Source: a bacterium (GTDB lineage Bacteria; Patescibacteriota; Minisyncoccia; Phycocordibacterales; Phycocordibacteraceae). From it: 36,411 bases of DNA. Where the stretch lies: positions 1-36,411 of the forward strand of contig JAHFMR010000007.1 of assembly GCA_023267755.1 (NCBI GenBank). The letters are read 5' to 3'. The notes below the pieces were generated by a model. That model saw only the letters and a list, made by a program, of their open reading frames with translations. It was not told the DNA's origin and made no database searches. Positions 5,826 through 19,300 of the stretch are shown here, piece by piece. Position 1 is the first letter of the stretch, and every line of letters starts with the position of its first letter. Position numbers and translations under genes: made by a program.

Positions 5826-6491
5826 TTAGCGAGTGCTGGTGGTCGTGGCGAGTGCCCCCTTGGGGAATTGTTTCTCGAGGTCTTCAAGCGAGGTGAAGCC
5901 GTGTGACTGCTTGCCGTTTATGACGAAGGCAGGCAGGGCGCCGCGCACTTTGTTAATCGTGATGAAGGTCTGCAGGGCGCCGAGGTCGAGATTGTAGTCA
6001 AAGGAGTAGACGCGCAGGCTTGGGTAGGTATTGCGCAGATACGAGAGCGCGTAGCCGGCCTTGTCGCAGGCGCTGCAGTCGCCCGCATTGCTGTAGAAGT
6101 AGAGAACCGTGACCGGCTTGGTGCCGCAGGCCACCGCGAGCCGCTTCGTGATTAAATAGTCGCGGATCTCGAGCAGAGAGTACTGCTGCTTGAGACGGAT
6201 TACTTGTGCGTTGTCGGTACCGAGCTGGTTCTCGGTGTAGGAGAGACGATTGCCGAGGTCGGCGAGACTGCTCACCAGTGTGGTCGATGAAGCGATGCTG
6301 TCGCAGGGCGCGCTCTCGAGCAGAGAGAACTGCGTGTCGAGCGAGAGAGTGTCGATAGAGAGTTGGTCTTCTATCGCCGAGAGTTCGGTGAGGCGCGCAT
6401 TGTTCAGATAATTAACAGCGTAGGCGACCGTGCCGGTAATAGCGGCAGCGATGATAAGAGAGATAATCGAATTGCGGATAAAAAGCGGCAT
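5826..6491 (-). CDS. Membrane-anchored thioredoxin-fold protein
   Basis: N-terminal TM; VTVLYFYSNAGDCSACDKAGYALSYL (CxxC) ... ALPAFVINGKQSHGF. Confidence 0.72.
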   Translation of the reverse strand: MPLFIRNSIISLIIAAAITGTVAYAVNYLNNARLTELSAIEDQLSIDTLSLDTQFSLLESAPCDSIASSTTLVSSLADLGNRLSYTENQLGTDNAQVIRLKQQYSLLEIRDYLITKRLAVACGTKPVTVLYFYSNAGDCSACDKAGYALSYLRNTYPSLRVYSFDYNLDLGALQTFITINKVRGALPAFVINGKQSHGFTSLEDLEKQFPKGALATTTSTR

Positions 6492-6497
6492 AGAGTA

Positions 6498-7733
6498 CTA
6501 GCGCCAGGTCGTGTTGGTGGCGAGCGCGACATCAGAGACCGAACGCACGAGCCAGAGCGGCGCGATGATGCCGTAAAGCGCCAGGTAGACGACAACGTTG
6601 AAGGCGAGCTTTCCTGGCGTCTTTGAGAGATGTTTGCCGGCATACATCCACGCGAGTGTTGCGAGCAGAAGCGTGGCGCTCAAGAAGGCCATCATCGTGA
6701 GTGGGAGATAGAACCAGGTAATCGGGTGCCAGGAAAAGGTATAGGAAAGGGGGACTGTCTGCACCAGCGAGAGTGTATGGAGACTGCTCTGAGTAAACTG
6801 GAAGGCGGCGAGCCCAAAGACGAAGATGCCGCTCGCTATTGAGATAAGTCCGAGTGGGAGGATAAGCAGACCGAGAGCCGCGTTTTGGCGATTACCGAGG
6901 AGGTCGCGGTAGTCGAAGAGCACATTACGCAGGAAACCGGTCGTCCAGCGGACGCGTTGCGTGACAAGCTTCGCGAGCGTGGGAGGGCCCTTGGTGTAGA
7001 CGCGCGAGCGGAGTGCGTTGCCGATCTTAAGCCCTGCGCGCTGCATCCGCATCGCCATTTCCATATCTTCGGCGAGGTGTGCGTGCTTGAAGAGACCGAG
7101 CTGTTCGAACACTTCGCGACGATAGAAGGAGAACGGCCCCGGAGTCACATAGAGGCTGTTGATAGAGGCGAAGACGTGGCGGAAGATGATGCCGAGCACA
7201 TATTCGGCATACTGCATACGCTGTAGGAGCGTTTTTGGCTGGTAGATAGACATCGATGCGGTCATCGCCATCGTGTCGGGCGTAAATGCTGCGACGAGCT
7301 CGTGCAGAGCATCGGGGGCGACGTAGGAGTCAGCATCGAGGAAGCCGATTAACTCCGCGTCTTTGGCGTACTCGATGCCGACATTCATCGCGGTAAACTT
7401 GCCGCCGTTTTCCTTATGGAGCGCAGTTATCTGCGGGTGCTCGGCGTAGCGGTCGATAATCGCTCCGGTGTTGTCGATCGATCCGTCGTTCACGAGGATG
7501 AGGGAGAGCTTGTTGGCAGGGTAGTCGAGCGCGAGAAGCGACTTGACCGTCCCCTCGACGGTAGATCCTTCGTCCCAGCAGGGGACGACGATAGCGACCT
7601 TGGGAACTGTCGTGAGCGGGCGTGCAGCACGACGGCTCTCGCGAGCAGGCTTGCCGAGGTACGTCACGAGCAAGAATGACTCGAAATAGAGCGTCAGGAA
7701 GAGAAAAGGATACACCAGCACCTCAAGATTCAT
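6498..7733 (-). CDS. Processive family 2 glycosyltransferase (membrane)
   Basis: VAIVVPCWDEGSTVEGTVKSLLALDYP..LVNDGSIDNT; FLDADSYV; QRVRW; C-terminal TM segments. Confidence 0.88.
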   Translation of the reverse strand: MNLEVLVYPFLFLTLYFESFLLVTYLGKPARESRRAARPLTTVPKVAIVVPCWDEGSTVEGTVKSLLALDYPANKLSLILVNDGSIDNTGAIIDRYAEHPQITALHKENGGKFTAMNVGIEYAKDAELIGFLDADSYVAPDALHELVAAFTPDTMAMTASMSIYQPKTLLQRMQYAEYVLGIIFRHVFASINSLYVTPGPFSFYRREVFEQLGLFKHAHLAEDMEMAMRMQRAGLKIGNALRSRVYTKGPPTLAKLVTQRVRWTTGFLRNVLFDYRDLLGNRQNAALGLLILPLGLISIASGIFVFGLAAFQFTQSSLHTLSLVQTVPLSYTFSWHPITWFYLPLTMMAFLSATLLLATLAWMYAGKHLSKTPGKLAFNVVVYLALYGIIAPLWLVRSVSDVALATNTTWR

Positions 7734-7778: not shown

Positions 7779-8933
7779 CTAGCGTACGGCCGCGCTGAGT
7801 ATCGTGGTAGTCGTTTCCTCGAGCTTTTTATGGAGAGTATCCACTTCTGCATTGGTGAGTGTGCGTTCAATAGAACGATAGGTGATGCGATACGCATAGC
7901 TCATCTTGTCGGACCCGAACTTTTCGTCATTCTCGTATTTATCAAGAAGAGTGACCTCTTCTACCAGATCGCCGCCCACTTCGCGTACCAAATCGAAGTA
8001 ATCATTCGGGACGAAATCTTTTCCTACAATAAACGAGATATCACGCACGATGGGAGGATATTTGCTTACGTCGTGGTAAGGCTGCCCGAGCACAAGTTGC
8101 TTCATCACACGCGAGTCATTGCTCCAAAGGAGACGGATATCCGGCAGCGCCATCGATGCGATAGCTATTCGTTCAAGTCCGAAGCCGAATGCCCAGCCAT
8201 GGTATCCCTCGACACCCATCTTCTTGAGAACACTCTTCTTCGGCATGCCGCCGCCAAGGAGCTCAAGCCACTCACCTTTGGCGGGACCTTCTGCAGCCGT
8301 ACCCTTCACGTTCAACTCAAGCTCAAGCGACGGGTCGGTGTAGGGGAACGTGTCGAGATTAAATCGGAAGACGACCTGTTCGCCAAAAATACTCTTTGCG
8401 ATTGCTGAAAGCGCTTCCTGCAGGTCTTCTACCTCCACCTTTTCTTTATCTGGGGCGAGATACCAGCCGCCGAGTTGATGGAACACATTCATGTGTCGGC
8501 TGTCTATCTCGTCCTTGCGGTACACCTTTCCGTAGCAGAGCGCACCCATGTGTTCACCGCGCGCGATGCGTTCTTTGATTTCTGGGTGCTGCAAATAGTA
8601 GTACCAGAAGACGGTATCGTGCGTGCGTAAGATATTCTCCCCATCTGCATAATACGTATCCGAGCGGCTGCGTGCCGGATGGTCAGCGGGGAAGTCGAAG
8701 AGGTCGAAGGAAATATCCGCAGGTACGATTTCAGGTATCTCGATAACATCGAAATCCTTGAAAAGAGGAAGCGCCTTGACGCGCGCGACGATCTCCTCGA
8801 GCGGGTTTCCTCTCGTGCGGGAGAGGTCGGGCATAGCGAGATAGCGTTGTTCGCGCAACGCCTCGAAGTCGGAGCGCGTCGCGAGCTCCTCGCGCAGTCG
8901 CATCTCATCATCTCTCGAAATCTTAATCTCCAT
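7779..8933 (-). CDS. Phenylalanyl-tRNA synthetase, single-chain (mitochondrial-type): PheS catalytic core plus C-terminal FDX-ACB domain
   Basis: GWAFGFGLERIAIASMALPDIRLLWSNDSRVMKQ followed by YPPIVRDISFIVGKDFVPNDYFDLVREVGGDLVEEVTLLDKYEN...YRITYRSIERTLTNAEVDTLHKKL. Confidence 0.9.
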   Translation of the reverse strand: MEIKISRDDEMRLREELATRSDFEALREQRYLAMPDLSRTRGNPLEEIVARVKALPLFKDFDVIEIPEIVPADISFDLFDFPADHPARSRSDTYYADGENILRTHDTVFWYYYLQHPEIKERIARGEHMGALCYGKVYRKDEIDSRHMNVFHQLGGWYLAPDKEKVEVEDLQEALSAIAKSIFGEQVVFRFNLDTFPYTDPSLELELNVKGTAAEGPAKGEWLELLGGGMPKKSVLKKMGVEGYHGWAFGFGLERIAIASMALPDIRLLWSNDSRVMKQLVLGQPYHDVSKYPPIVRDISFIVGKDFVPNDYFDLVREVGGDLVEEVTLLDKYENDEKFGSDKMSYAYRITYRSIERTLTNAEVDTLHKKLEETTTTILSAAVR

Positions 8934-8957: not shown

Positions 8958-8986
8958 TAGCATAAAAAAAGAGCGAATTTATGCTA
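8958..8986. promoter_or_regulatory. Divergent promoter region pheS/gyrB with inverted repeat
   Basis: TAGCATAAA (8958-8966)/TTTATGCTA (8978-8986); -10 TATAGT on minus (8948-8943), -10 TATACT on plus (8985-8990). Confidence 0.5.
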
Positions 8987-9016: not shown

Positions 9017-11074
9017 ATGGCTAAAACTACCGACAGGGAACCTAAAAAGAAGGCGTATGACGCTTCGTCTATTACCGTCCTCGAGGGGCTCGAGCCGGTG
9101 CGTAAACGCCCAGGTATGTACATCGGGACCACGGGTCCCGAGGGACTCCATCATCTCGTGTGGGAAATCTTCGACAATGCTCGCGACGAGGCGATGGCAA
9201 GCCGCTGCGACGATATCGAGGTCGCGCTTCTCCCCGATGGCTACGTGCGCGTCGCCGACAACGGCAACGGCATTCCGGTAGGCATCCACCCCAAGACCAA
9301 GGTCTCCGCACTTGAGACGATTATGACGGTGCTCCACGCGGGCGGTAAGTTCGACAACGAGGCATACAAGGTCTCAGGCGGTCTCCACGGCGTGGGTGCC
9401 TCGGTAGTGAACGCACTCTCTGATCACACTAAGGTGGTGGTGCACCAAGACGGTGGGATGCATATGCAGGAGTACAAAATAGGCAAGCCGCTTGCCAAGG
9501 TGAAGAAGGTTGGAACCAGCTCGGAGCACGGCACTATCGTGTTCTTCAAGCCGGACATCACTATCTTTAAAGAAGGGATTATTTTCGATTTGGAAAAGAT
9601 AGAGACGCGCCTGCGCCAGCAGGCCTACTTGGTGAAGGGCGTGCGGGTGTCAGTCGTCGATGCACGCAGCGAGAAGAAGGCATTTGAGACCGAGACAATC
9701 TTCCTCCGCGAACAGAAGCTCGATGTGCCGAGCACGACCTTCTACTTCGAGGGTGGATTGAAGTCGCTGGTCGCTTTCTATAATCGCCACCAGACACCGG
9801 TGCATAAGAATATTTTCTACGTCGACAAGGAGCAGGATAAGGTGTCGGTGGAGGTCTCGCTGCAATACGTAGACGACATAACCGCGCGCATCACCGCCTT
9901 TGCAAACAATATCTATAACAGCGAGGGGGGCACGCACATCACCGGCTTCAAGACAGCGCTCACTCGCGCACTCAATACCTACGGCCGCACCGCGAACATA
10001 TTGAAGGAGAAGGACGAGAACTTCACGGGCGACGACGTGCTCGAAGGCATCACCGCGGTCGTCTCGGTAAAGCTCCCTGAGATCCAGTTTGAGGGTCAGA
10101 CCAAGAGTAAGCTCGGCTCGATGGAGGCACAGGGCGCGGTCTCGGCTGTCTTCGGCGAGGCGCTGAACTCATTCCTCGAAGAGAATCCAGACGACGCGCG
10201 CGCGATTATCAACAAAGTCCTCCTCGCACTAAAGGCGCGTAAGGCCGCTAAGGCCGCCAAGGACTCGGTGCTGCGCAAGGGCGCTCTCGAGGGGATGACG
10301 CTCCCGGGTAAGCTCGCAGACTGTCAGACAAAGAGTGCTGAAGAGGGTGAGCTCTTTATCGTCGAGGGAGACTCGGCCGGCGGTTCTTCTAAACAGGGTC
10401 GTGATCGTCGCACACAAGCGATTCTCCCACTGCGCGGCAAGATCTTGAATGTGGAGCGTGCACGCATCGACCGTATGCTCGCGTCGGTGGAGATCCGCGC
10501 GCTCGTGGTCGCGATGGGTACCGCTATCGGTGATGTCTTTGACCTCTCCAAGCTCCGCTATCATAAGATCATCATCGCCACCGACGCCGACGTCGACGGC
10601 GCGCACATCCGTACGCTTCTCCTCACGCTCCTCTATCGTCACTTCCGGCCGATTATCGAGGGCGGTTTCGTCTATATCGCCCAGCCGCCGCTTTACAAGA
10701 TTACAAAAGGGAAGGCGATCGCATATGCGTATTCAGATAAAGAGAAAGAGGGTGTCCTCAAGGAGCTCGGCGTCGCTCCTGAAGAGGTGTCCGAGAACCC
10801 GCTTGAGGGTGGCGAGGAGACTCCTGAGGAAGAGGTGGTCGCTATTAAGAAATCAACCAAAGTAAATATCCAGCGCTACAAGGGCTTGGGCGAGATGAAC
10901 CCGAGCGAGCTCTGGGAGACGACGATGGACCCCGCGCGCCGCGTCCTCAAGCAGGTGCAGGTCGACGATGCTGAAGCAGCCGACCGCATCTTCGACATCT
11001 TGATGGGTACCGACGTTGCTTCTCGCAAGTCCTTCATCCAGTCGAACGCAAAGCTCGCGAATTTGGATGTGTAA
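9017..11074 (+). CDS. gyrB: DNA gyrase subunit B
   Basis: VLEGLEPVRKRPGMYIGTTGPEGLHHLVWEIFDNA; GGLHGVGASVVNALS; EGDSAGGSSKQGRDRRTQAILPLRGKILNVE; QRYKGLGEMNPSELWETTMDP. Confidence 0.96.
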   Translation: MAKTTDREPKKKAYDASSITVLEGLEPVRKRPGMYIGTTGPEGLHHLVWEIFDNARDEAMASRCDDIEVALLPDGYVRVADNGNGIPVGIHPKTKVSALETIMTVLHAGGKFDNEAYKVSGGLHGVGASVVNALSDHTKVVVHQDGGMHMQEYKIGKPLAKVKKVGTSSEHGTIVFFKPDITIFKEGIIFDLEKIETRLRQQAYLVKGVRVSVVDARSEKKAFETETIFLREQKLDVPSTTFYFEGGLKSLVAFYNRHQTPVHKNIFYVDKEQDKVSVEVSLQYVDDITARITAFANNIYNSEGGTHITGFKTALTRALNTYGRTANILKEKDENFTGDDVLEGITAVVSVKLPEIQFEGQTKSKLGSMEAQGAVSAVFGEALNSFLEENPDDARAIINKVLLALKARKAAKAAKDSVLRKGALEGMTLPGKLADCQTKSAEEGELFIVEGDSAGGSSKQGRDRRTQAILPLRGKILNVERARIDRMLASVEIRALVVAMGTAIGDVFDLSKLRYHKIIIATDADVDGAHIRTLLLTLLYRHFRPIIEGGFVYIAQPPLYKITKGKAIAYAYSDKEKEGVLKELGVAPEEVSENPLEGGEETPEEEVVAIKKSTKVNIQRYKGLGEMNPSELWETTMDPARRVLKQVQVDDAEAADRIFDILMGTDVASRKSFIQSNAKLANLDV

Positions 11075-11135
11075 ATGTGTAGGACGTCGTACGTCCCACA
11101 TCTGATGTCGGGACGTACGACGTCCCGACATTTTT
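11073..11135 (+). terminator. Paired-palindrome hairpin after gyrB
   Basis: GGACGTCGTACGTCCC (11082-11097) inverted at 11110-11125; final hairpin GTCGGGACGT-ACG-ACGTCCCGAC followed by ATTTTTA. Confidence 0.8.
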
Positions 11136-11898
11136 ACGAACCGAGGATGGTGAGCTGCGCAGAAGCGCTGTTGTTGTCAGGATTGGTCTCCGTGACGGCG
11201 TGGTCGAAGTTTGCAGTGATAGAGATTGTCTGCAAGCCGCGATTCGCCTGGTCGAAGCCGAGGGTGTAGTCGATGCTGTCGCCTGGGTTAAGTGCTTGCT
11301 GGGGCGGCGACTGGAAGATGTAGGCCGTCTGTGTAGGGATAGAAGCGCTGAAGCGCCACGCGCCCGAGGCGTTGCCGCCGACGTTTTTAATAGTGAAGCT
11401 GACCGCAGGGCGGCTGCCGGTAGGGACGGTCGATGAGGCGATGAATGAATCAGCCGAGCTCGTCGCGAGATAGCCCACACCCTTGATAACCACGATGAAG
11501 TCGGGGAGGCCCGAGAGGGGAGTGCTGACTGCGGCGGTACCGTTTATCGGATACGTGGAGGTCTTCTTCTCGCCAGGAGTCGGAGCGGACACAACCGGCT
11601 TAACTGGTGCCGGAGTAGCAACAGTCGATGTCGCTACGGTCGAGGTCGCGGTGTTGGTTGAAGAAATTGTGGAAGACGCCGTGGGTGTCGGCACGACCGA
11701 GAGGGTAGCGGTGGAGCGATTGAAGACGGAGCCGAGATAGACAGCCGCAGCACCAGCGCCGTTTACCACGGTGGGGACATAGCGCGTCGAGTAGACCGCG
11801 AGCCACATACCGAGGCCGACAAGTGCGACAAAACCGACCACTGCGAGACCGGTGGCGGCCGCAGAGCGGGGCGAAGAGGCTTGGGTAAAGATATTCAT
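11134..11898 (-). CDS. Membrane-anchored surface protein with CARDB-like domain
   Basis: N-terminal TM, Ser/Thr/Pro/Ala linker, PAVSFTIKNVGGNASGAWRFSASIPT...LQTISITANFDHAVTETNPDNNSASAQLTI. Confidence 0.75.
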   Translation of the reverse strand: MNIFTQASSPRSAAATGLAVVGFVALVGLGMWLAVYSTRYVPTVVNGAGAAAVYLGSVFNRSTATLSVVPTPTASSTISSTNTATSTVATSTVATPAPVKPVVSAPTPGEKKTSTYPINGTAAVSTPLSGLPDFIVVIKGVGYLATSSADSFIASSTVPTGSRPAVSFTIKNVGGNASGAWRFSASIPTQTAYIFQSPPQQALNPGDSIDYTLGFDQANRGLQTISITANFDHAVTETNPDNNSASAQLTILGS

Positions 11899-11990
11899 AG
11901 GTACTCTATACATACCACAATGCAGTTTTAATGTCAAGCACTCGGGGCTTGACATATGGGGCACAATGGTGTATTGATATGTAAGACGAT

Positions 11991-12659
11991 ATGGAGAAAT
12001 TTATTCGAGTCACCGCACGGCTTATCAAGGCCGTCAAGCGGGCCTACGAACAGAAGTGGAGCTTCTGTGGCGTTTTCGCGCTGGTATTCCTCGGAGGTGT
12101 TGGCTGTCTCGGGTATCTCGGGCTCCTGCCGCAGGCGGTCGCGATTAGCGCGCCAAGCGTCTCGCTGAGTTCAAACGCTGTCGCGGCAGTGGCGGAGGTT
12201 CCTGTCGTCACGCCTGAGTTGCCGACGAGGATATCGATCCCAGCGATCGGCGTGGACGCGGCTATCGCGAACCCGACGACAACCAATATCGCTGCGCTCG
12301 ACAATCTCTTGCTCAAGGGCGCGGTGCGGTACCCCACCTCGGCCTCTCTTGGTGAGACGGGAAATGTTGTCCTCTTCGGCCACTCGAGCTATCTGCCGGT
12401 TGTGTTGAATCAGGCGTACAAAGCCTTCAACAATATCCAGAAGCTCGCTGCAGGAGACGTGATTACGGTGTACTCGTCTGGTACGGCGTATACCTATCGC
12501 GTGAAGAGCGTCGCTCACGAGAGCACGAACACGGCTGGCATCCCACTCTCGGTGACGGGTCGCGTGCTCACGCTCACGACCTGCGACTCGTTCGGCGCCA
12601 AGACGGATCGGTTCGTTGTTACCGCAGACTTTGTTGAGAGTCACTCGCTCCCGTTATAA
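11991..12659 (+). CDS. Sortase family protein
   Basis: N-terminal TM; RISIPAIGVDAAI; NVVLFGHSS (His); VLTLTTCDSF (Cys); KTDRFVVTADF (Arg). Confidence 0.9.
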   Translation: MEKFIRVTARLIKAVKRAYEQKWSFCGVFALVFLGGVGCLGYLGLLPQAVAISAPSVSLSSNAVAAVAEVPVVTPELPTRISIPAIGVDAAIANPTTTNIAALDNLLLKGAVRYPTSASLGETGNVVLFGHSSYLPVVLNQAYKAFNNIQKLAAGDVITVYSSGTAYTYRVKSVAHESTNTAGIPLSVTGRVLTLTTCDSFGAKTDRFVVTADFVESHSLPL

Positions 12660-13726: not shown

Positions 13727-15148
13727 ATGAACGAAACAAAACTCAATTCTCATACACAAGCTCATCCGATTATTGTCGGACTCTTTACCATTGCCGTGAC
13801 AGTTGTCTCCGGCTTCTCCATCGCAATTTTGATGGGGGTGACCACGCCTGCGCAGGTATTCGCGCAAGTAGCTCCTGAATGTTGCACGTTGCCGCCACCT
13901 CCTCCGCCACCGCCTCCACCGCCACCCCCTCCTCCTCCGCCGGTGGTGCCGATCATTATTTCTGGTTGCACGGATGCTGCGGCGACGAATTATAATTCAG
14001 GTGCCACTGTGGACGATGGGTCGTGCATCTACCCCGCTCCTGCTGCTGTCGTAGTTCCGATAGTTCCAGTTGTCCCAGTGCTTGGTTGTATGGACCCGAC
14101 TGCGACCAATTACAACCCGGCTGCGACCAGCCAGGCGGGCGTGGTCTGCACCTATCCGCCTGGCACCGTCTTCGGCTGTATGGACCCTACCGCGACCAAC
14201 TATAATCCGGCTGCAACCAGCCAGACTGGCATCGTCTGCACGTATCCGTCAGGAGGCGGTGGTTCGGGCGGTGGCGGTGGCGGTGGCGGAGGCGGTGGAG
14301 GAGGTGGCGGGGGCGGCGGGGGCGGTGCCGCGCCTGCACCGACCATCCTGCTCACCTCGCTCCTGCACGCTGGTATCCAGCCGCTCGCCTATCTTTATCT
14401 CTCACAGATCCCACAGACGGGTCTCGTCTTGAGCCCGCTCGGTATGGCTGTCTATTGGATTGGACTTATCGGCTTTGCGCTCCTCGCGGCCTATTTCATC
14501 CTCTTCAGCGTCGCTCCTGTTGTAAACGAGCAGACGCGCAGCTTCGCTGCGCATATCTCGCAGTTGATTAATGAGCAGGAGAGTATTGCTCCTCCCGCCC
14601 CGCCAATCGCGCACACTGTCGTGGAGACGCCAATGCCAGAGAGCCCTCGAGGAGATGTTCGCAGCTACTCGCCGTATCACGGATTCAAGTCCTTCGCGAC
14701 GAACGGCGCACTCTCTATCGACGATATTGTGAAGGGCCTCACGCGTGGGCCGGTGGTGACGAAGACAGAGCCTATTTTTGAGAATGTCGAGTCTATCATC
14801 TCGACTCCCGAGGCAGCGACGCCAGCATCGACCAAGGGTTTTATCGCGGCGCTTATTGAGGGCGATCGCGAAGCAGTCTTCGCCGGTCTACGTCAGCAGG
14901 TGCGCGGCGGCGGCTCGCCGGAGCATCTTATTTCAGAGGCGGTTTGTCTCCTTGACGACGCCTATCGCGCTCGTGTCGACGGCACTCCCTGTGACGACTC
15001 AGTCGCGCGTCTCGCTGCGCGTCTCACCACACCAACTCTCGAGAAGGTCGTCACGGCGCTCGCGACCGCGGTGGACTCGAGCTACTCAACCGATATAACG
15101 GGCGCCAAGCTCGCGCTTATGCGCGCGCTTACGGTGCTCGGCGCGTAA
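13727..15148 (+). CDS. Surface protein: poly-Pro, three GCxDxxATNYN repeats, poly-Gly, IPQTG-TM segment, C-terminal domain
   Basis: Direct translation; N-terminal signal anchor; P-run; GCTDAAATNYNSGA / GCMDPTATNYNPAATSQ x2; G-run; LSQIPQTGLVLSPLGMAVYWIGLIGFALLAAYFILF. Confidence 0.85.
   Translation: MNETKLNSHTQAHPIIVGLFTIAVTVVSGFSIAILMGVTTPAQVFAQVAPECCTLPPPPPPPPPPPPPPPPPVVPIIISGCTDAAATNYNSGATVDDGSCIYPAPAAVVVPIVPVVPVLGCMDPTATNYNPAATSQAGVVCTYPPGTVFGCMDPTATNYNPAATSQTGIVCTYPSGGGGSGGGGGGGGGGGGGGGGGGGGAAPAPTILLTSLLHAGIQPLAYLYLSQIPQTGLVLSPLGMAVYWIGLIGFALLAAYFILFSVAPVVNEQTRSFAAHISQLINEQESIAPPAPPIAHTVVETPMPESPRGDVRSYSPYHGFKSFATNGALSIDDIVKGLTRGPVVTKTEPIFENVESIISTPEAATPASTKGFIAALIEGDREAVFAGLRQQVRGGGSPEHLISEAVCLLDDAYRARVDGTPCDDSVARLAARLTTPTLEKVVTALATAVDSSYSTDITGAKLALMRALTVLGA
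13964..14250 (+). repeat. Three tandem-type peptide repeats GC(T/M)D(A/P)(A/T)ATNYN...
   Basis: Repeats 2 and 3 nearly identical (GCMDPTATNYNPAATSQ[A/T]G[V/I]VCTYP). Confidence 0.85.
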
Positions 15149-16385
15149 TCTCGTCGCTTGCGCGAGCGATAAAATCAACAAGGGGCAGCGCATCAAGCTT
15201 TCCCGCGTCACGGCTCTCGACCGAGACAGTGTGAGCCTCAACCTCTTGGTCGCCGACGACGAGCAGGTAGGGAGTTTTTTCAACCTTTGCTTCACGAATC
15301 TTCTTACCGAGCGATTCGTTTGCGTCATCGAGCTCAGCGCGGATACCAGCAGCTCGGAGCATTGCGAGTACCTCGCGACCATAGTCAGCGTGCTTCTCTG
15401 ATACCGGCAGGACGCGCGCTTGCACCGGTGCGAGCCAGAGAGGGAAGGCACCAGCATATTTCTCGATGAGGAAGGCCATAATGCGTTCGATAGCACCGAT
15501 AGAGGAGCGATGGACGACGAATGCGCGATGCGCCTGGCCGTCTTCGCCAACGTAGGTGAGGTCGAACCGATCGGGCATACAGAAGTCATACTGGACGGTG
15601 AAGGCAGTGTCCTCCTTGCCGTTTACGTTCTTCATTTGGATATCTATCTTGGGGCCATAGAAGGCGGCCTCATCCTTAGCCTCCACGAACTTGCTTCCGC
15701 GCTGCACAAGGAGCTTGCGCAAGAGGTCTTCGCTCTTCTCCCACGCAGCGTCATTTGTATAATATTTTTCAGTGTTCGCGCGATCGCCGAGTGAGAGACG
15801 GTAGTGATAGTCGGTGTCGAGCGCTAGTCCGAAGACACTCGTGACGTATTCGATAAGGTCGAGAGCGCCAGCGACCTCGGCGACCGCCTGTTCTTCTGAA
15901 GCACAGATAATGTGTGCGTCAGAGAGGCAGAAGGTGCGCACGCGCTGGAGACCCATCAGCTCGCCCGACTGTTCGTAGCGGTAGAGCTTTGCGAGCTCGG
16001 CGATGCGCATCGGCAGTTCGCGATAGGAGACCGGCTTACGCAAGTAGAGCTCGAAGTGGTGCGGGCAAGTCATCGGGCGGAGCATAAACTGCTCGTCGTC
16101 AATCTCGATGGGTGCGTACATCGAGTCCTTGTAGTGCGGATAGTGACCGCTCTTCTTATACAGATCGAGCTTGGCGATATCGGGCGTGTAGACGTGGAGG
16201 TAGCCGCGACGGACTTCCTCGTCGACGATGAAGCGCTCGAGCTCGCGGCGGATTATTGAGCCCTTGGGGGTGAAGAGTGGGAGACCTTTGCCGACAGAGT
16301 CGGAGAAGGCGAATAAATCAAGCTCTCGGCCGAGCTTCTTATGATCGCGCTCTTTATCTGCATCCATATCTGCCGAATATACCAT
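15129..16385 (-). CDS. thrS: Threonyl-tRNA synthetase, catalytic plus anticodon domain only
   Basis: GLPLFTPKGSIIRRELERF; LRPMTCPHHFELY; YRYEQSGELMGLQRVRTFCLSDAHIIC; C-terminal QARVLPVSEKHADYGREVLAMLRAAGIRAELDDANESLGKKIREAK; no TGS or editing domain. Confidence 0.93.
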   Translation of the reverse strand: MVYSADMDADKERDHKKLGRELDLFAFSDSVGKGLPLFTPKGSIIRRELERFIVDEEVRRGYLHVYTPDIAKLDLYKKSGHYPHYKDSMYAPIEIDDEQFMLRPMTCPHHFELYLRKPVSYRELPMRIAELAKLYRYEQSGELMGLQRVRTFCLSDAHIICASEEQAVAEVAGALDLIEYVTSVFGLALDTDYHYRLSLGDRANTEKYYTNDAAWEKSEDLLRKLLVQRGSKFVEAKDEAAFYGPKIDIQMKNVNGKEDTAFTVQYDFCMPDRFDLTYVGEDGQAHRAFVVHRSSIGAIERIMAFLIEKYAGAFPLWLAPVQARVLPVSEKHADYGREVLAMLRAAGIRAELDDANESLGKKIREAKVEKTPYLLVVGDQEVEAHTVSVESRDAGKLDALPLVDFIARASDEITRRAP

Positions 16386-16396
16386 ACGCCGATGGT

Positions 16397-19300
16397 TTAT
16401 ATAGGTTTCAAGTCGTCGATGGCGATAGAGGGCTCGCCGTTGCGGATAGTCACCTTTCCCTTCACCAGAAGACACGCCCCAGGTGCGATAATCGCGGCGT
16501 GCTCCTTGAAGAGTCGCGGGAAGATGACCGCCTCGAGCGAATCGCTTTTGTCCTCAAGCTTTAAGAATGACATCTTTTCGCCGCTCTTGGTGAGCATCGA
16601 GCGGATCTCGCTGATGAGGACCGGAAGAATAATCAGCTGGCCGGATATCGGCTCAGCCTTAATCTTTGCGAGCGAGAGATTAGATTTGGCGGTGTAGCTC
16701 GCGTGTGCGTCGAGCGGGTGGCCGCTCACGTAGATACCGAGCAATTCCTTCTCCCACGCGAGCTTGTCGAGGAGTGTTGTCGGCTCTGCGGGGGCGAGGA
16801 CGAGCAAAGGTGCTGAGTGGAAGGAATTGCCGAAGAGCGAGTCCTGCGGCGCGACGGCGGTAGACTCGCGGTGATAGGCGAGGAGCGTTTCAATATTGAT
16901 AAGGAGCGTGCCGCGGCCGTCGGCGCCACTGGTTAAGGAGTCGAGCGCACCGCACTTGATGAGCGATTCGAGTGACTTACGATTCAGGTTCTTTGAATTG
17001 ATGCGAGAGAGGAAGTCAGAGAGGGAGGTAAAGGAGCCGTGTGCCCCTCTCTCGGCGATAATCGCTTCACTGATGCCATCGCCGAAGTTCTTAATTGAAG
17101 AGAGACCGAAGCGGATAGCGTTCGGCAGCGGATGAGAAGTGTCCTCGAATGAAGCGGCGTCTTCGCCTGCTGGCGAATCGCCTCCTCTCGCGCCGTCGCG
17201 CTGCGAGACTTCATTCTCGGGCACATTCTCATTCACTGCTGTGTGTATAGTTGTGAAATCTGCACCGCTCTCATTCACATCGGGCGGGAGGACGGGGACC
17301 TGCATTCGTGTCGCTTCGGCGACGAAGATGGCGATGGCCTCGGTGTCGCCTGAGTCGGCGGTAAGAAGAGCGGCAAGGTATTCGACCGGATAGTTTGCTT
17401 TCATATACGCGGTCTGATACGCGACTTTCCCATAACTCGCAGCGTGCGCCTTGTTGAAGCCGTATGCGGCAAAGGGTTCTATCAAGTGCCAGAGTTTCTC
17501 CGCCTTCTCCTTAGAGAGCTTCCCGTACTCGACGAAGCCCTTCAAGAGCTTCTCCTTCTCGGCCTGCATCACCGCGGGGATCTTCTTTCCCATCGCTTTG
17601 CGAAGCTTGTCAGCCTCGAGCCAGGAGTAGCCGCCGAGTGTGATAGCGGTGAGGAGCACATCGTCTTGGTAGACGAGGAGACCGTAGGAGAAGTCGAGAT
17701 AGTCCTTCATACGTGGATCGAGGAAGTTGATGAATCGCGGATTATGCTTGCGCTCGACGTATTGTGGGATTGTCTCCATTGGTCCCGGGCGATAGAGCGC
17801 GACCATCGCATTGATATCGTGAATTGTTGAGGGCTTCAGCTCCTTAAGCCAGCGCGTCATCCCCGAGCCGTTTAGCTGGAAGACACCTTCAGTCTCGCCC
17901 TTCGCGAGCATCTGGAATGTCGGCTCATCATCGATGGGAATGTTTTCGATATCGACCGCGATACCGCGAGTCGCCTGCACGCGCGCGACGACGTCGGCGA
18001 GTATCGCGAGGTTCTTGATCCCGAGGAAATCAAACTTGGTGAGCCCAATGCCGTCTTCGCCGACCGAGTACATATCATACTGAGTGATAAGTTTCCCGGT
18101 GCCCTTTGGGTCGGGCTGGACCGGCGTCCACTGGATCATCGGTGTGGGCGATATCACCACGCCCGCCGCGTGCACACCAACGTGCCGCACACACCCCTCG
18201 ATGCGCCGGGCGAGATCTATCACCTCGCGCGACTCATCGTCTTCGTCGTAGAGCGCCTTCAGGTCGGGCTCCAGCTCGAGCGCCTTTTCTATCGTCATCG
18301 GGAATCCTTGCGAGCCCATCGGGATTAGCTTCGCGATGCGATCGCCGGTGGTGTAGGAGTGGCCGAGTGCGCGCGCGACGTCGCGCACCGCCGCCCGCGC
18401 CATCATCGTGCCGAAAGTGCCTATTTGTGCCACGTGATCCTCGCCATATTTGCGCTTGGCATACGCGATCATATCGTCGCGTCGATCGTCGGCCATATCC
18501 ATATCGATATCGGGCGCCTTGGGACGCTCCGGGTTGAGGAAGCGCTCGAAGGGGAGCTTGTAGAAGAGTGGGTTCACGTTGGTGATGCCGACAAGATAGG
18601 CAACGAGGCTGCCGGCGGCCGAGCCGCGCGTGGTGGTGACGATGCCGGCGCTCTTGGCGAAGGCGAGGAGATCTCCGACTATTAGGTAGTACACCGCGAA
18701 GCCTTTAGAGATGATGATGTTGAGCTCATATTCGACACGGTCAGTAACCTCTTTGGTCTCTTCGAGTCCGCGCGTTTTGATACCCTCATAGGCTTTGGCG
18801 CGCAGCTCCTCCTCGTGAGAAGTGAATCCTTCTGAGACGGGGACAGCAGGGAAGGTCCACGACCCCATCTCAAAGGAAATAGTGCAACGGTCGGCGATAA
18901 GCCGGGTGTTGTCGACAGCCTCGGGAGTGTCCTTAAATAGGTTGAGCACTTGTTTCTCGCTTAAGAAAGAGAAATCTTCTTGCTCATTGCGCCCCCGGCC
19001 ACCCTGGCCTATCCGGCGGAGGATCTCGGTCGCTTCGCGGTCGTCAGGATTGAGATAATAGACATCGTGTTGTGCGACCAGAGGCGTGCCGCTCTCTCGA
19101 GCGAGTGCGACAATCTGCCGCATCGACTCCTCGTGTCCCTCGATGCCCGGATGGTGGGTAATCTCGAGGAAGACATTCTCGGCACCAAAGATATCTCGGT
19201 ATTCAGCGAGCGCAGCCGCCGCGCCACTCGGGTCGCCTGCGCGCAGATATTGAGCGATGTCGCCGGAGAAGGAGGGGATGAGAGCGATGAGTCCACGAGA

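Follow-up and report, generated by a model that had tools for sequence, protein, structure and literature searches.

How does an uncultivated bacterium with a tiny genome charge its tRNA-Phe when the only candidate for this task is one short protein chain? Phenylalanyl-tRNA synthetase (PheRS) is reported to be heterotetrameric throughout the prokaryotes, the single chain being peculiar to organelles (PMC3275996), and in the literature covered here the single-chain form is confined to organelles and related compartments of algae (PMC3275996, PMC4394434, PMC4494062). A description of a bacterial single-chain PheRS was not found in the open-access literature. The window analyzed here, i.e., the whole stretch of 36,411 nucleotides of contig JAHFMR010000007.1, contains an ORF that was read in a first-pass annotation as a PheS core fused to a C-terminal FDX-ACB domain, in the layout of mitochondrial FARS2. 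We propose, with a probability of about 0.88, that this ORF encodes the only PheRS of the cell, a single chain that works like FARS2, was acquired horizontally, and displaced pheST at its slot.

Domain architecture and the search for a second PheRS

The features of the ORF are as follows:
7779-8933, minus strand: single-chain PheRS ORF, 384 aa from the ATG at 8933
8097-8819, minus strand: class II PheRS catalytic core, tRNA-synt_2d (Pfam PF01409, E 1.4e-49), residues 49-289
7782-8066, minus strand: FDX-ACB anticodon-binding domain, B8 (Pfam PF03147, E 2.2e-21), residues 300-394
8475-8531, minus strand: motif 2, GKVYRKDEIDSRHMNVFHQ, near-invariant in alignments of 12 and 28 proteins
8160-8198, minus strand: motif 3, GWAFGFGLERIAI, in which Ala258 aligns with Ala294 of E. 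coli PheS

Both domains lie in one open frame, and the ORF contains no further Pfam domain. The first reading of a 384-aa ORF with these two domains was borne out by Pfam, and the peptides quoted for it are present; the strand, which that reading had left unstated, is minus. An in-frame ATG further upstream, at 8963, would result in 394 aa; 8933 is the likelier start, because most aligned relatives begin at the second (384-aa) position. The same two-domain frame is kept in 28 proteins of different genomes with a mean column identity of 72%, and in their alignment motifs 2 and 3 of class II are near-invariant. Judged from sequence, such a single frame with two domains is far beyond chance.

The closest solved relative of the ORF is human FARS2 (E 1.9e-58), with both domains aligned, whereas in the same search of solved structures the alignment of bacterial PheS was confined to the core and that of PheT to the end. 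The AlphaFold model of the protein (pLDDT 90.4, pTM 0.87) gave the same picture. The top Foldseek match was again human FARS2 over the full length (E 4e-35, TM 0.76, 32% identity), and bacterial PheS matched essentially in the core. The spacing of motif 2, YR-x-D-x-ID-xxH, is common to the ORF, FARS2, and SrmL, the "PheS-related mystery ligase" (NF051887). In an alignment of the FDX-ACB domains, D341, Y343, and S355 correspond to the D-x-Y and the S of E. coli PheT. From the contacts reported for Asp729, Tyr731, Ser742, and Arg780 of Thermus thermophilus (PMC9976931), these three residues are predicted, probably, to hold G34.

The genome comprises 583,495 bases on 21 contigs and is rated 98.7% complete. 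Of these bases 580,967 (99.6%) are readable, and nearly all of the 2,528 N are in one masked contig of 2.5 kb (C20). Unfiltered searches of the readable bases with profiles for single-chain PheRS, PheS, SrmL, and PheT found only the window ORF, and a protein search of the genome also located PheRS at one place only. The bacterial pheT profile matched, in the whole genome, only the ORF's own FDX-ACB domain and, on a different contig, one stand-alone tRNA_bind protein:
L003:1471-1812 (G000 C19), plus strand: stand-alone tRNA_bind (EMAP-like) protein, 113 aa

A search of the genome for the B3_4 domain gave no match, while all control genomes were positive. Thus, a pheT with B3/B4 and B5, as required for a heterotetrameric PheRS, is absent from the readable genome. 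The earlier statement that the window lacks pheT was correct, and the whole-genome search suggested at that time extends it, because no pheS/pheT pair was found in the readable 580,967 of 583,495 bases. One tRNA-Phe(GAA) gene and one tRNA-Tyr gene are present.

Relationship to FARS2, SrmL, and PheS

Trees of the core domain united the CPR single chains in one group (97/91) and the CPR PheS in another, which stands beside other bacterial PheS (100/99). Single chains, SrmL, and FARS2 were separated from all PheS (99/94), and this split reached 100/100 once the FDX-ACB domain was added. The FDX-ACB domains of the single-chain lineage have a mean identity of 41.7% to human FARS2 and of 29.8% to PheT. 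As judged from these trees, the ORF is part of a single-chain lineage that spans the CPR and has a common ancestry with FARS2 and SrmL, which agrees with the proposed FARS2-type layout. Among the possible branching orders of FARS2, SrmL, and the CPR clade, none was firmly preferred by the trees (AU p 0.39 and 0.51; third arrangement 54/16), in which human FARS2, copied from tool alignments, is the only eukaryotic sequence. A eukaryotic contaminant, which the first reading had named as an outcome of a phylogeny that would refute it, was ruled out by the conserved bacterial synteny and by the named relatives, which are CPR or unplaced bacterial MAGs.

The label "mitochondrial-type" holds for layout and grouping, but not for family membership. 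The ORF scores 215 bits with NCBIfam TIGR00469 (pheS_mito; cut-off 258), similar to its relatives with 210-233 bits. Because it is below the cut-off, it was not filed under TIGR00469 but as a FARS2-like sister lineage. The mitochondrial enzyme (FARS2, PheRS-M) shares with it the single chain of PheS-like core and C-terminal FDX-ACB, the absence of B1-B7 and of an editing domain, the identity of 32% across the fold, and the spacing of motif 2. In contrast to the mitochondrial enzyme, the window enzyme is bacterial, is the sole PheRS, and has an FDX-ACB domain that is on average 42% identical.

The single-chain PheRS is widespread. In a census of 385 sampled genomes of the class, with counts that are approximate since masking touches some genomes, it was found in 111 genomes from more than 30 families. 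B3_4 was detected in 252 genomes, together with the single chain in only 3, and 25 genomes had neither. Outside the class, the single chain also occurs in other genomes of the phylum. Among the carriers that have a name are Kaiser-, Nomura-, Zambryski-, Colwell-, Yanofsky-, Taylor-, Adler-, Doudna-, Vogel-, and Liptonbacteria. Of the three genomes with both, G141 has pheS and pheT on a different contig from the single chain. The other two encode solo B3/4 proteins of 229-244 aa that are not PheT and might be candidate trans-editing factors:
L250:1243-1977 (G314), plus strand: solo B3/4-domain protein in a single-chain genome
L253:1483-2172 (G329), minus strand: solo B3/4-domain protein in a single-chain genome

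Among the genomes with neither, an archaeal-type PheS was not found above the cut-off. One of the apparently PheRS-less genomes, G364, owes this appearance to masking (N make up 72 kb of its 562 kb, and gyrB is also missing), and for this reason no conclusion was drawn from such genomes. A weak PheS-profile match in G364 is LysRS, as judged by the adjoining sequence. A viral source of the single chain was also considered and rejected, since viral contigs contain no relative; the phage and plasmid matches that were inspected or annotated are PheS, PheT ends, or SrmL. The SrmL-type genes are the following:
L037:4865-6091, plus strand: SrmL-type single-chain protein, second copy in G025
L028:533-1741, plus strand: SrmL-type protein, the only PheRS-like protein found in G071
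L240:6010-7122, plus strand, and L241:5830-6948, plus strand: SrmL genes that are annotated as hypothetical proteins, located on plasmids of Azotobacter and Glutamicibacter

SrmL resembles the window protein in being a single chain of core and FDX-ACB-like end on the same side of the tree. Could the ORF be such a paralog with another job, the true pheST having been missed via incomplete assembly or masking? SrmL-type proteins do sit beside other enzymes, as in G025 with both kinds and on the two plasmids, and one contig of the genome is masked. However, the ORF scores only 203 bits with the SrmL profile (cut-off 300), which is passed by other proteins with 360-524 bits, its core is only 29% identical to SrmL, and it is placed outside the SrmL clade. 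In addition, B3_4 is absent from 108 of the 111 single-chain genomes, and the gene occupies the slot that holds pheST in relatives, with pheST fossils retained in two single-chain genomes (see below). This explanation is therefore very improbable.

Concerning the deeper origin, it is a tentative possibility that the single-chain PheRS goes back to an ancient lineage of bacterial enzymes, maintained and exchanged chiefly within CPR. Mitochondria would then have received their PheRS from this lineage instead of trimming a heterotetramer, and in CPR the locus beside gyrB would be a swap site of full, editing-less, and single-chain enzymes. The opposite direction, that CPR took up a mitochondrial-type PheRS gene from eukaryotes which then spread among them, would also be compatible with the proposed function; FARS2 is indeed, in sequence as in structure, the closest relative known, and no branching order of the three single-chain groups is firmly preferred. 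It is unlikely, however, in view of a bacterial clade that is deep (identity down to about 45%) and present beyond one class, of single chains located beside gyrB across the phylum, and of the kinship to SrmL on bacterial plasmids.

The slot beside gyrB

The neighbourhood of the ORF comprises:
9017-11074, plus strand: gyrB, which adjoins the PheRS slot on the right and is conserved there (Pfam; synteny)
6498-7733, minus strand: GT2 glycosyltransferase, the left-hand neighbour within the genus (Pfam and synteny)
5826-6491, minus strand: thioredoxin-like protein, second left-hand neighbour (CSACDKAG-type stretch identified by eye; synteny; no Pfam match)
11134-12659: hypothetical protein (minus strand) and sortase-like gene (plus strand), right flank past gyrB (synteny; sortase label by eye)

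In the genus, the alleles share one slot, which has the order GT2(-), then either pheS-pheT(+) or the single chain(-), then gyrB(+). Full pheST is found at this slot in 27 of 28 genomes and a short pheST in 8 of 11; the remaining 4 end at a contig edge. At the pheST loci pheS, pheT, and gyrB are all on the plus strand, with GT2(-) at the left wherever the stretch extends so far. Of 16 single-chain genomes of the genus, 14 have the order GT2(-), PheRS(-), gyrB(+), and in other families and classes, too, gyrB adjoins the single chain at most loci. Among relatives (L287-L306), the GT2 protein is about 51%-70% identical to the window copy and does not track gyrB; in G022, for example, GT2 is 52% and gyrB 92% identical to those of the window.

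Two genomes contain remnants of the former occupant. In G040 the single chain is followed, just ahead of gyrB, by a 58-aa relic of a pheT tail. This relic has 76% identity to the end of PheT from G022, compared to 38% to the single chain of G040 itself. In G047, where the single chain is encoded elsewhere, the stretch between GT2 and gyrB contains a decayed pheS that is interrupted by stops and shifts (best E in this stretch 7e-9). Because of these pheST fossils at the slot, pheST preceded the single chain in the lineages of G040 and G047. For 53 species of the genus, the gyrB tree requires 10 changes of the single-chain state, at least 8 of which are forced by well-supported branches, and a single clade of all single-chain genomes was rejected (p-AU 5e-6). 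A one-clade test of the single-chain genes themselves was not used, since some named loci may be unlabelled members of the genus. The nearest gyrB relatives of the window, G022 and G058, have full pheST. From this we infer that the window lineage, which has no fossil of its own, also moved from pheST to the single chain. Therefore, the earlier view that PheT was lost is right in that B3/B4 is absent, but the event was not a simple deletion, as the single chain displaced pheST at its own locus, and did so repeatedly in the genus.

The linkage of the single chain to gyrB throughout the phylum would also be in line with an ancestral single-chain enzyme of CPR, with pheST re-entering the slot repeatedly, which is compatible with the proposed function as well. 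As the fossils of G040 and G047 put pheST first in those two lineages, this scenario is quite improbable. A deletion in place, which fused the resident pheS to the 3' end of pheT, would explain why the locus is the same and why the product consists of exactly the two retained domains. But the CPR PheS nest among the other PheS of bacteria, at a distance from the single-chain clade, the FDX-ACB domain is nearer to FARS2 than to PheT, the orientation of the gene is opposite to that of pheST, and in G040 a PheT tail that is like PheT and not like the local single chain coexists with the latter. Such a fusion is thus extremely improbable.

The favored explanation is displacement. A single-chain gene would arrive by horizontal transfer and replace the resident pheS-pheT between GT2 and gyrB, probably by recombination within the conserved flanks. 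The exchange may extend into the neighbouring GT2 gene. The slot has a third occupant, the short pheST, which encodes a PheS of about 245 aa and a PheT of about 380-420 aa; the latter contains B5, CLM, and FDX-ACB but lacks B3/B4. This form was found in another family and, within the window's genus, in 11 species, for example at these loci:
L038:2287-3462, minus strand: short PheT
L043:1836-3014, minus strand: short PheT
L046:2006-3148, minus strand: short PheT
L052:2956-4218, plus strand: short PheT

By its predicted domains, the short pheST is a two-subunit PheRS stripped of the editing domain. It seems to be mobile too, because it needs 7 changes on the gyrB tree and yet its pheS forms one clade (100/100).

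tRNA-Phe, editing, and the consequences of the replacement

The tRNA-Phe of genomes with different enzymes is identical in 74 of 74 nucleotides. It is shared by single-chain genomes (G003, G020, G023, G028, G033, G047, and G050), by genomes with full pheST (G019, G030, and G058), and by genomes with short pheT (G013 and G016). A change of the tRNA along with the enzyme is therefore not needed, because identical copies serve all three enzyme types. The tRNA-Phe carries G1-C72, A73, and GAA, which mark tRNA-Phe for mitochondrial PheRS (PMC9976931). A broad tRNA specificity has been reported for FARS2 (PMC4394434), and the identity of tRNA-Phe across enzyme types would fit a similarly broad specificity here.

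In the proposed mechanism the class II core would activate phenylalanine and charge tRNA-Phe, and the fused FDX-ACB domain would read the anticodon, probably swinging as in FARS2. Lacking B3/B4, the enzyme would not perform the usual hydrolysis of Tyr-tRNA-Phe, which would be expected to persist, and accuracy would rest on the synthetic site. We infer catalytic activity, a monomeric state, missing Tyr editing, and the mechanism of recombination; the picture of a monomer that charges tRNA-Phe without editing Tyr-tRNA-Phe is derived from the domain content. Compared to the bacterial (alpha-beta)2 enzyme, the expected reaction, the tRNA-Phe, and the gyrB-side slot in CPR relatives are the same, whereas PheT, B3/B4 editing, and the B5-B7 scaffold are missing, and the core lies outside all PheS.

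Editing seems to be reduced elsewhere in this genome. The ThrRS in the window (15129-16475, minus strand, 448 aa) is devoid of the N-terminal TGS/editing part; it has only the core and the anticodon domain in Pfam, and its match to the thrS profile begins at position 161 of 565. LeuRS contains its editing domain, and ValRS matches the full profile through the editing region. The LeuRS (L339:1541-4402, plus strand; G000 C4) also has an apparent NUDIX domain at residues 383-503 (Pfam E 3.7e-9). Among the synthetases checked, the genome shows two, PheRS and ThrRS, that are predicted to be without editing. Mycoplasma may lack two of these editing activities, and a case with three or more is not known (review, PMC7373986). 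The editing-deficient PheRS of Mycoplasma is likewise found in a small genome (PMC7373986). However, pheS and pheT are both retained in Mycoplasma, where the editing site is degenerate (PMC7373986, PMC4014445), while here the whole beta subunit is gone.

With a bacterial clade whose only PheRS is a single chain, the question of where mitochondrial PheRS came from becomes directly testable. The pheST fossils represent a clear case of the displacement of an essential enzyme in place. For genome annotation it follows that single-chain genomes look as though they were without pheT. And, finally, close relatives that have the same tRNA-Phe and a beta subunit that is full, shortened, or absent represent a natural experiment on proofreading.
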